A stretch of 64,000 nucleotides of DNA from Hymenobacter pini (GTDB lineage: Bacteria; Bacteroidota; Bacteroidia; Cytophagales; Hymenobacteraceae). Of the stretch, positions 448 to 61,868 are shown piece by piece (the first letter of the stretch is position 1; every line of letters starts with the position of its first letter). The notes beneath the pieces are model-generated. The model did no database searches, was not told the DNA's origin, and saw only the letters and a list, made by a program, of their open reading frames with translations. Location of the stretch: the NCBI RefSeq assembly GCF_020421205.1, contig NZ_JAIZZH010000003.1, forward strand, positions 434,001 through 498,000, in the 5' to 3' direction. Both the position numbers and the translations under genes were made by a program.

Positions 448-607
448 TTAGCTGTTGGCTACTAGCTGTTAGCTGACAGCGCCGGCAGCCTAAACTGACC
501 GGGCGCGAAACGAATGTTCAAAAATGGCAAATAAAAAACTCCCTCCGGATGGCGAAGGGAGTTTCTTATAGAAAGCTATCAGCCAACGGCTAGTAGCTAA
601 CAGCTTA
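448..607. repeat. Intergenic inverted repeat of heptad words around a terminator
   Basis: The left arm (448-480) reads as repeated 7-base words of the form TAGCTGT, TGGCTAC, TAGCTGT, TAGCTGA. The right arm (574-607), read on the minus strand, gives the same word family. A conventional terminator hairpin sits between them. Together they fill the gap between rpmE2 and the next gene. Similar nested structures occur at 32773-32978 and 55354-55536. Confidence 0.7.
536..564 (-). terminator. Intrinsic terminator after rpmE2
   Basis: The arms aaactccct (536-544) and agggagttt (556-564) pair perfectly around an 11-base loop. On the minus strand the right-hand end continues into a run of T, as expected for the end of the rpmE2 transcript. 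Confidence 0.8.
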
Positions 608-22260: not shown

Positions 22261-22292
22261 GATAGTTGAGTAGGCGAACTACAAAAATACGT

Positions 22293-22375
22293 CATCCTGA
22301 GCACAGCGAAGGACCTTACTCCACCTGAACAATATGGTTCAAGCGGGATAAGGTCCTTCGTTGTGTTCAGGATGA
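22293..22375. repeat. REP-like long inverted repeat between ruvB and queG
   Basis: catcctgagcacagcgaagg plus acctta (22293-22318) is mirrored by taaggtccttcgttgtgttc plus aggatg (about 22350-22375) with few mismatches; a short inner palindrome around ctgaacaatatggttcaag lies between. The cgtcatcctgagc edge resembles the other gtcat-type elements of the window. Confidence 0.7.
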
Positions 22376-22394
22376 TGGATTGGGTGCCCGAAAC

Positions 22395-24588: not shown

Positions 24589-24595
24589 GGCAATG

Positions 24596-24650
24596 GGTGA
24601 ATGAGAGAATGGGGAATTAAGAAGATGATAAATGTATTCGCTCATTCACC
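24596..24650. repeat. Octad-word inverted repeat between convergent genes
   Basis: ggtgaatgagagaat (24596-24610) is mirrored by attcgctcattcacc (24636-24650) with one mismatch. The words (gtgaatga, gagaatgg) belong to the same type as the repeat at 61783-61861. The arms begin 7 bases after one stop codon and end 2 bases before the other. Confidence 0.65.
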
Positions 24651-24652
24651 GC

Positions 24653-29423: not shown

Positions 29424-29567
29424 GTCATTCCGAGCAGCGCGAGGAATCTTGCCTGCTGACGCTAGAGTGTATCTGTCATGCAGAGGCGGAGCCGAAGCAT
29501 CTCGCGTGCTGATGGTGCAGTGGTAACAACGTCAGCACGCAAGATTCCTCGTGCTGCTCGGAATGAC
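29424..29567. repeat. Composite REP-like element
   Basis: The outer arms gtcattccgagcagcgcgag plus gaatcttgc (29424-29452) and gcaagattcctcgtgctgct plus cggaatgac (29539-29567) are a nearly perfect inverted repeat. An inner unit, gtcatgcagaggcggagccg plus aagcatctcgcg (from about 29475), has the same gtcat core. Such motifs recur in Hymenobacter genomes in my memory. Together with the terminator this accounts for most of the 500-base gap; I see no gene in it. Confidence 0.75.
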
Positions 29568-32473: not shown

Positions 32474-32519
32474 CCGGCCTGCGCTACCGTTTCTTGCCCA
32501 AAGGGCCGGTTCTTTTTTT
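32474..32519 (+). terminator. Orphan terminator-like hairpin in a leader
   Basis: ccggcc (32474-32479) pairs with ggccgg (32504-32509) around a 24-base loop and is followed by ttcttttttt. No plus-strand gene lies upstream within the gap, so this would end a short leader RNA before the 74-residue gene. Confidence 0.45.
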
Positions 32520-32551
32520 CGGCTTGCTGTTGCACCTCTGCCCATCCTGCC

Positions 32552-32776
32552 ATGCTCTCTTCCGGTTTACTCTACCTGTTTGTTGCCCTGGTATTCGTTG
32601 GCTTGCTACTGGCATTTCCGCGCCGCCGCCAGCGCATTCCCCCCACCCCCGACAGTGACGACGACGGGGGCGAACCGCTGGATGATGGCTTACCTGACTT
32701 CGACCTGCCCCCCGGTATTTCCCGCCCCATCAACGACTGGGAGCCGGACTACAACCGCCGCCCAGTGGAGGTGTAG
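32552..32776 (+). CDS. Small single-helix membrane protein
   Basis: The 74-residue product has one hydrophobic N-terminal helix (SGLLYLFVALVFVGLLLAF), a basic stop (PRRRQR) and an acidic, proline-rich tail (SDDDGGEPLDDGLPDFDLPP). Topology would put the acidic tail in the cytoplasm. I do not know a function. The composition of the tail and the codon use look like coding sequence. Its stop codon forms the first bases of a heptad inverted repeat. Confidence 0.6.
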   Translation: MLSSGLLYLFVALVFVGLLLAFPRRRQRIPPTPDSDDDGGEPLDDGLPDFDLPPGISRPINDWEPDYNRRPVEV

Positions 32777-32978
32777 AATTCAGAACTTAGAAGTGAGAAT
32801 TTAGAACAAAGAAGCTGTTTGAGTTAGCCATAAACGATGTAGAAGCACACTAACAGTTTCACCACTCAAACTGAGAGGGGAGCCCTTCGTTCCGGCAATG
32901 CGCCAACAGAACGAAAGGCTCCCCTCTTACTTCTTTGTTCTCATTTCTAAGCACTGGCTTCTCAGTTCTAAATTCTAC
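32773..32978. repeat. Nested heptad-word inverted repeat between convergent genes
   Basis: The left arm (32773-32814) reads as 7-base words gaattca, gaactta, gaagtga, gaattta, gaacaaa, gaag. The right arm (32930-32978) is its imperfect reverse complement, ending aattctac. Both stop codons of the flanking convergent genes lie inside the arms. A strong inner hairpin, agaggggagcc (32874-32884) with ggctcccctct (32917-32927), sits between them. Confidence 0.8.
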
Positions 32979-33391
32979 AAATCCTTGGCCATGCGAATGT
33001 AGGGGATGGTGCCGCGGTAGAAGCGGTTGCCCTCGGGCTCCAGACCAAAGGCCCGGTAGAAGTTTTCGTTCACGGCGCGGGCGTCGCACCAGATGCGCTG
33101 GGCCCCTTTCTGGCGGGCATCATCCAGCACCTGGCGCAGCAGCTGGGAGCCGATACCCTGGCCCTGGCAATCGGGGCGGGTGGCAAACTTACGGAAGCGG
33201 GCCACGCTACCGTCAATGAACAAGGAAATCACCGATACGAGCTTGCCATTGCGGAAGGCCCCGTAGTGGTGGCCTTGCTCGTCCTGGTTCAGTTTTACGT
33301 AATCAAGGGATTCCTGGGGCCACAGCACTTCGTGGCGCAGCGGGTAGGTTTCGGCCGCCTTGATGGGGCGGATGGTAATTTCGGAGGTCAT
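32975..33391 (-). CDS. GNAT family N-acetyltransferase
   Basis: The 138-residue protein has the GNAT acetyl-CoA binding core: RFRKFATRPDCQGQGIGSQL contains the R/Q-x-x-G-x-G/A motif (QGQGIG), followed by RIWCDARAVNENFYRAFGL, the usual motif B helix with its tyrosine. It transfers acetyl from acetyl-CoA to an unknown amine substrate. The ATG at 33391 is chosen over a TTG upstream. It begins 7 bases from the end of the aldose epimerase gene, so the two share an operon with the NAD salvage genes above. Confidence 0.9.
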   Translation of the reverse strand: MTSEITIRPIKAAETYPLRHEVLWPQESLDYVKLNQDEQGHHYGAFRNGKLVSVISLFIDGSVARFRKFATRPDCQGQGIGSQLLRQVLDDARQKGAQRIWCDARAVNENFYRAFGLEPEGNRFYRGTIPYIRMAKDL

Positions 33392-53738: not shown

Positions 53739-53836
53739 CTGTAGCTGGGAAGAAGTGGGTTGCATGGTGCGTTTTTGCATCCTGACCTGGCTTTTATCCG
53801 TCCTATCTCCTAGCTACTAACTCCTACCCTCTTTCT

Positions 53837-54799
<963 letters not shown>

Positions 54800-54801
54800 T
54801 T

Positions 54802-54905
54802 AGTTAGGAATGCTGCATGGTGAATGATGAACTGGTGGCCAACTTATGGTAGCTTCTTCTCGCTTCAACTAACCCTTCAGCACTCCTAACTCATAATTCA
54901 TAAAC
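54802..54905. repeat. Imperfect inverted repeat between moxR and the next gene
   Basis: tagttaggaatgctg (from 54803) is mirrored by cagcactcctaactc (about 54877-54892), and further short words of 7 bases (gaatgat, tgaatta) match imperfectly. The element begins directly after the moxR stop and ends before the next ATG at 54909. Confidence 0.45.
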
Positions 54906-54908
54906 CCA

Positions 54909-55352: not shown

Positions 55353-55353
55353 T

Positions 55354-55536
55354 TCACAGATTTCATCGGATTGACGGCGGGTTTTGTGGTCAGTTACTGA
55401 CCACGGAATTGAAGCCCAGAAAACGAAAAAGACTTGCCGTACTGGCAAGTCTTTTTCGTTTTCTGGATAGCTCGGAAGTGCAATGAATCGTCCACAAAAT
55501 CCGCGGAATCCGCGGCACAATCCGTGAAATCAGTGG
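55354..55536. repeat. Nested word repeat around a 23-bp terminator
   Basis: The left arm (55354-55389, tcacagatttcatcggattg and so on to gttttgtgg) is mirrored by the right arm (55492-55536, ccacaaaatccgcggaatcc to gaaatcagtgg). The right arm is built from words such as ccgcgga and tccgcgg. A perfect 23-bp hairpin lies inside. The arms begin one base after one gene's stop codon and end two bases before the other's. Confidence 0.8.
55416..55466. terminator. Perfect 23-bp bidirectional terminator
   Basis: ccagaaaacgaaaaagactt plus gcc (55416-55438) pairs without mismatch with 55444-55466 around the loop gtact; A and T rich tracts flank the G+C part on both strands. Confidence 0.88.
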
Positions 55537-55538
55537 TC

Positions 55539-61785: not shown

Positions 61786-61861
61786 GTGAGTAAATGAGCG
61801 AGTGAGCGAATGAGTGAATTTCCAAAATGTCACTTGTTCGCTCACTCGCTCATGCACTTAT
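61783..61861. repeat. Octad-word inverted repeat between response regulator and kinase genes
   Basis: The left arm (61783-61810 and on to 61818) reads as 8-base words gagtaaat, gagcgagt, gagcgaat, gagtgaat; the right arm (61837-61861) is its reverse complement (ttcgctcactcgctcatgca). It begins at the stop codon of the regulator and ends just before the kinase ATG, inside what should be a single operon. Confidence 0.8.
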
Positions 61862-61868
61862 TACATGC

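Follow-up and report, generated by a model that had tools for sequence, protein, structure and literature searches.

Degenerate heptads occupy intergenic gaps in cyanobacteria as the STRR heptanucleotide repeats. Intergenic heptamer arrays have had no accepted role, and the best-studied case has been interpreted in terms of G-quadruplexes. Specifically, Rehm et al. described GGGAATC and GGGGA(C/T)T heptamer repeats in Xanthomonas and Nostoc as intergenic, emphasising G-quadruplexes and finding no function (PMC4692102). The GGGAATC repeats are under-represented between divergent open reading frames, form 70–75 inverted pairs per Xanthomonas genome, may overlap stop codons, and differ in length and sequence across species at the same gap; transcripts also start or stop more often at these repeats (PMC4692102). 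MacGregor reported TAACTGA heptamer arrays just upstream of starts in Beggiatoaceae, Cyanobacteria and some Bacteroidetes; the repeats are direct, with one inverted case, and were proposed as translational regulator sites, a palindromic stop-to-start layout not being reported (PMC4679880). GTAG- and CGTC-tagged REPs are extragenic palindromes that follow genes and have proposed roles in termination and mRNA stabilisation (PMC3733652). Template switching, a single event of which yields a perfect inverted copy and re-establishes pairing, creates and maintains RNA hairpins, although the hairpins of that report concern RNA-gene stems and not intergenic word arrays (PMC8794818).

The window analysed here is a stretch of 64,000 nt from Hymenobacter pini, within which the gap between two convergent genes (32774–32977, from stop TAG to stop CTA) is a single nested palindrome with degenerate heptad arms (Table 1). 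The initial annotation had described this gap as filled by a nested inverted repeat, and the words that it listed are exact: directly 3′ of the TAG (32774–32776), the left arm reads GAATTCA GAACTTA GAAGTGA GAATTTA GAACAAA GAAG, and the right arm terminates with ...CTTCTCAGTTCTAAATTCTA at the stop codon of the GNAT gene (32975–32977). The period-7 array is also detected by Tandem Repeats Finder, and the heptads of the arms lack any GGG. The MFE of the gap is –97.2 kcal/mol, compared to –54.4 ± 4.8 kcal/mol for 200 shuffles (z = –8.97), and the stop triplets of both genes are base-paired in the MFE structure, in agreement with the earlier statement that both stop codons are part of the arms. The outer arms show 74% complementarity across 47 nt, and the strong GC-rich hairpin claimed to lie inside them is indeed present. 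The insertion-like stretch that separates the left arm from this hairpin has no partner on the right side and lies outside the large palindrome; a search of the genome found no second copy of it, and H. rigui has no equivalent, its arms otherwise forming a near-perfect palindrome. The small protein encoded upstream is acidic and looks membrane-anchored, and is kept beside the GNAT gene across Hymenobacter.

Table 1. Features of the focal convergent gap and further word-built palindromes in the window.
Feature	Position	Strand	Remarks
Upstream gene, 74-aa small protein, ORF ends in TAG	32552–32776	+	Adjoins GNAT gene in many Hymenobacter
Left (5′) arm, AGAATTC AGAACTT AGAAGTG AGAATTT AGAACAA AGAAG	32775–32814	+	Starts within stop codon
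Asymmetric 54-nt stretch carrying a separate small hairpin	32815–32868	+	From sequence comparison and fold
Inner GC-rich hairpin, arms 32869–32892 and 32909–32932	32869–32932	+	24-nt arms, 88% complementary, no U-tract
Right (3′) arm, reverse-complement heptads	32930–32977	+	Final three bases are the GNAT stop codon
Convergent neighbour, GNAT-type N-acetyltransferase, 143 aa	32975–33406	–	
Second convergent example, stop-to-stop (gap 452–614)	450–605		Arms TAGCTGT TGGCTAC TAGCTGT TAGCTGA
Co-directional example, stop-to-start	61786–61868		Octads TAAGTGAG TAAATGAG CGAGTGAG CGAATGAG
Co-directional example, stop-to-start	53739–53836		CTCCTAN words; AAGCACY words in H. rigui orthologue
Co-directional example, stop-to-start	54800–54908		AAAAATTAGGAATTA-type words in H. 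rigui orthologue
Weak convergent example	24589–24652		22-nt arms, GGTGAATGAG-type words

The other palindromes in the window had been described as running from stop codon to stop codon; this holds for the gap at 452–614, whereas those at 61786–61868, 53739–53836 and 54800–54908 run from stop to start. The heptad arms at 452–614 enclose a separate inner hairpin that is terminator-like, and an alternative start at 61827 would place part of the 61786–61868 octads within the next ORF. A convergent gap at 55353–55538 has outer arms of roughly nonamer words (AATCCGCGG / CCGTGAAATC), which surround a perfect 23-nt terminator-like hairpin (55416–55466). REP-like hairpins of the form GTCATTC/CGTCAT(T/C)...GAGCGAAGCGAAGAATCTCGCG, resembling CGTC-tagged REPs, are found at 29424–29567, at 22286–22381 and in the gaps of loci L042–L051. 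Elsewhere in the genome, near-perfect heptad arrays of TTAGAGC, TTAGCTG and TTAGTGC occur at C8:511127–511165, C8:857375–857420, C10:379376–379421 and C10:464874–464912, and are candidates for recent slippage and strain-level variation.

To place the focal gap among others, we surveyed 864 kb of the H. pini genome including the window, 480 kb of H. rigui, the nearest named relative found, and 80 kb surrounding the orthologous region in four other Hymenobacter, with genes called by a purpose-made codon model that is exact for stops and approximate for starts. At a threshold of at least 16 of 21 lag matches, the 1104 gaps of these six genomes held 39 arrays at period 7, 21 at period 8, and none at periods 6, 9 or 10, while shuffled gaps of the H. 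pini genome yielded approximately none. Divergent gaps were depleted in arrays, with 0/197 at period 7 and 2/197 at period 8 (Fisher p = 9e-4). Median MFE z-scores versus shuffles were –6.8 for convergent gaps (88% below –3), –2.5 for co-directional gaps and –0.4 for divergent gaps. Pairing between the 30-nt ends of each gap was evaluated at an alignment score of at least 12, using the ends of other gaps as the control; this level was reached in 23/81 convergent gaps against an expectation of 0.44, in 22/318 co-directional gaps against 0.35, and in 0/89 divergent gaps against 0.16. The arrays and the end pairing thus concentrate in convergent and co-directional gaps and are rare or absent in divergent ones, which ties the class to gene 3′ ends. 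The heptad palindrome of the focal gap belongs to this class. The survey therefore bears out both the proposal of a class, as arrays of period 7 or 8 occur in the gaps of six Hymenobacter genomes, and the expectation that the pairing exceeds chance; most members, however, sit stop-to-start between co-directional genes and not stop-to-stop.

The palindromes of the class share a common anatomy. In co-directional array palindromes, ~7 nt separate the stop codon from the arm and ~10 nt separate the arm from the next gene, compared to 23 and 31.5 nt for other palindromes. With one zero-skew case excluded, a G-rich 5′ arm is combined with a C-rich 3′ arm in 34/36 co-directional array palindromes, whereas the opposite arm skew occurs in 79/103 of the non-array convergent palindromes, which are mostly terminators. 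Arrays at the 5′ end of a gap have positive skew in 30/33 co-directional and 7/9 convergent cases, versus 35–37% of array-free gaps; arrays at the 3′ end have negative skew in 50/52 co-directional and 6/7 convergent cases, a property already seen in 83% of array-free co-directional gaps. The G-rich 5′ end of array gaps is therefore not background, and the C-rich 3′ end is partly so. Recurrent word families include AACTGRC, AGCTNAC, GAAACYA, TTCTCAC and CTCCTAN, as well as the octads GTCCCTAA and TTCACCAT. Across 46 palindromic arrays, the identity of one arm to the other is 0.87 in register, a value somewhat inflated by picking the best offset beforehand, and falls to 0.59–0.63 upon a shift of one word, compared to 0.55 for neighbouring words within an arm; the register is best in 44/46 arrays. 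Thus, the description of heptads matched by their reverse complement is accurate for the arm as a whole (~87% in register), but not for words within an arm, which are only ~55% alike. This word-by-word agreement rules out independent slippage of the two arms, and requires either an inverted copy or sustained selection for pairing. Growth by short-word slippage, as originally suggested, fits the period of 7 or 8, but alone leaves the agreement between arms unexplained.

Like the GGGAATC repeats of Xanthomonas, the Hymenobacter arrays have a 7-nt tandem unit, the same placement and strand polarity, depletion in divergent gaps, and inverted pairing, and several are built of AACTGAC, the same word type as TAACTGA. 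The initial annotation knew of no description of the class, a view that the earlier accounts of GGGAATC arrays in Xanthomonas (PMC4692102) and of TAACTGA near starts (PMC4679880) do not support. In contrast to the single fixed G-tract word of GGGAATC, which forms G-quadruplexes, Hymenobacter uses many degenerate words, mostly without GGG, and also at period 8. G-quadruplexes were accordingly rejected as an explanation of the class, as many of its words are unable to form them; the common factor is the hairpin architecture. What is known is therefore the intergenic heptamer array with the same layout, and what is new is the many words and the lack of quadruplex potential. A comparison with Rfam returned only a sub-threshold chance hit for the window element (18 bits versus a gathering threshold of 40), and a promoter within the arms was rejected, the frequency of the motif TAnnTTTG in array gaps not being significantly different.

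Comparison of orthologous gaps reveals how quickly the words are exchanged. Among 23 Hymenobacter loci orthologous to the focal gap, judged by eye, all are convergent gaps with hairpins, and the GAAnTnA words recur in H. rigui alone, with a looser match in H. perfusus; the other orthologues carry CGTC-REP-like hairpins, CCCTAAT or GTGAATA heptads, or short terminators. The CGTC-REP-like hairpins fill the orthologous gap in several Hymenobacter. Between H. pini and H. rigui (289 reciprocal best hits, median protein identity 92.7%, 244 gap pairs), complete word sets are replaced at the same gap. The co-directional gaps whose palindromic arms showed no recognisable homology were palindromic in both species in 5 cases, in H. 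pini only in 4, in H. rigui only in 4, and in neither in 91 (odds 28, p = 1.5e-4), a result that holds under minimum-gap-length filters and matches the earlier expectation that words change while the palindrome tends to stay. A coarser test on the folding z-scores of unalignable gaps was not significant (p = 0.43 for co-directional gaps and p = 1 for convergent gaps), such that palindrome retention represents good but not final evidence. At P149820 (C9 region, L158), H. pini carries a long GC-rich palindromic block and the H. rigui orthologue an unrelated heptad palindrome, both at the same spot between the stop codon and a conserved flank containing TACCTTTG. In alignable convergent palindromes, unpaired sites change more than paired sites. 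Pairing-preserving double changes were more numerous than expected: in those without arrays, double changes restored pairing in 22 cases and did not in 7 (9.5 double changes expected), and in those with arrays the counts were tiny, with 3 restored and 1 not (0.8 expected). Palindromes without arrays turn over too, indicating that turnover is not peculiar to heptads. Overall, these comparisons suggest that orthologous gaps tend to keep a hairpin, often while the spelling of the words changes entirely.

Related arrays extend across Bacteroidota. Exact arrays of four TTAGNNN words are present in 68/198 genomes, compared to 7 genomes for TTAG at period 6 and 18 at period 8, and at period 7 the control with the core reversed (GATT) is about as frequent, in ~67/198 genomes, with controls counted by eye. 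A special role of the TTAG core was rejected on this basis: the period is special, the core is not. In a genome of 33% GC (G249), period 7 is again dominant, and in a distant genome of 58% GC (G257), only period 8 occurs, chiefly in convergent gaps. Loci from these genomes, such as L204, L206 and L211, include palindromes of both the stop-to-stop and the stop-to-start kind, in which the core is fixed and the fillers vary. At another locus (L205, G257:C2 ~407747), a convergent gap of 68 nt consists of eight same-direction octads TTAGTNNN and has no hairpin, showing that arrays can occur unpaired.

Starting from the observed structure, period, location, polarity, register match and replacement of the palindromes, we consider it about an even chance that they arise at gene 3′ ends by slippage and inverted copying, and are retained as RNA hairpin boundaries, 3′-terminal or intercistronic, and not for their sequence. 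In this mechanism, slippage by 7 or 8 nt would multiply a word beside the stop codon to give a degenerate tandem array, as suggested by the strong period signal. A replication template switch may then copy the array, variants included, as its reverse complement, which would account for the word-by-word match of the arms; the inverted copy would land across a spacer or an existing hairpin, and continued template switching could go on correcting the arms. The upstream transcript would fold into a long hairpin that begins ~7 nt past the stop codon and either stops ~10 nt short of the next start or extends to the facing stop. Such a hairpin may delimit the upstream message on its 3′ side, most likely through a block to 3′-to-5′ decay and/or a pause of RNA polymerase, and would act other than as a U-tract terminator. 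Selection would retain the hairpin and not its spelling, so that a different set of words, a REP-like element or a plain terminator could take the place of whole arms.

The palindromes could instead be mutational by-products, with slippage and template switching acting everywhere and their functionless hairpins surviving only where they are harmless, after stop codons. We regard this as rather unlikely, even though each palindrome is essentially unique in its genome, the words are replaced wholesale between species, an unpaired octad array exists at L205, and period 7 matches heptamers known to be prone to slippage (PMC4692102, PMC4679880). The recurrence of palindromes with non-homologous arms at the same co-directional gaps would, under neutrality, require mutational hotspots or unusually tolerant gaps, and the uniform polarity and the uniform spacing from the stop codon and the next gene also argue against an origin without function. 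The initial annotation proposed bidirectional terminators or mRNA 3′-end stabilisers, and a Rho-independent terminator with long accessory arms would be in keeping with the GC hairpins and A/T tracts normally carried by convergent gaps of the H. pini genome, and with the inner hairpin enclosed by the heptad arms at 452–614. As with intrinsic terminators, the focal element is a hairpin in a convergent gap; unlike them, the heptad palindromes have no U-tract, are far longer, and have reversed GC polarity. No terminator-like site (GC hairpin plus U-tract) was found in 32500–33300, where 0.8 were expected, and among co-directional gaps such signals occur in 4% of those with arrays versus 14% (p = 0.014). 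The canonical intrinsic terminator was therefore rejected, and the version with accessory arms is improbable. The bidirectional reading is not supported either, as most class members lie between co-directional genes.

A role as an all-frame stop cassette, in which stop-containing words of 7 or 8 nt, not being multiples of 3, close every reading frame, would explain the absence of periods 6 and 9. Per 28 nt, the Hymenobacter arrays close 1.37 forward frames versus 0.88 ± 0.11 for permuted-column words, and 1.72 reverse frames versus 1.34 ± 0.12. However, this enrichment is modest and does not recur in two other Bacteroidota genomes (2.10 versus 1.87 ± 0.18 and 1.14 versus 1.14 ± 0.38), the stop-free core GATT is about equally common at period 7 across the phylum, period 10 is absent too, and words copied from around a stop codon carry stops anyway; the cassette was downgraded and now appears quite implausible. 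CGTC-tagged-like REP hairpins fill many neighbouring and orthologous gaps, which could indicate a mobile or dispersed repeat (REP/BIME or MITE). In contrast to the high-copy sequence families of REPs, the heptad palindromes are single-copy and word-built: the window element has no second copy in the H. pini genome, the sole other match being its own palindromic half, and at ~200 nt without a CGTC tag it is not a short (20–40 bp) tagged palindrome. A mobile or dispersed family was thus rejected for this element, and we consider such an origin very improbable.

Returning to the reading of a retained gene-end hairpin, a broader version is possible but tentative. The GGGAATC and TAACTGA repeats, the cyanobacterial heptads and the Bacteroidota arrays might all be stop-anchored, word-independent and continually rewritten palindromes of 7–8-nt words, serving as gene-end RNA boundaries in several bacterial phyla. 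The conserved trait would then be the period of 7 or 8, the G-rich 5′ arm following the stop, the C-rich 3′ arm preceding the next gene and the word-copied arms, with no involvement of a G-quadruplex. The occurrence of the same placement and polarity with non-quadruplex words makes it testable whether selection acts on a gene-end hairpin of any spelling, and also whether template switching supplies such hairpins. Searches by sequence similarity miss a class of word-built palindromes entirely. Overall, the results point to a poorly described and fast-rewritten type of gene-end element.
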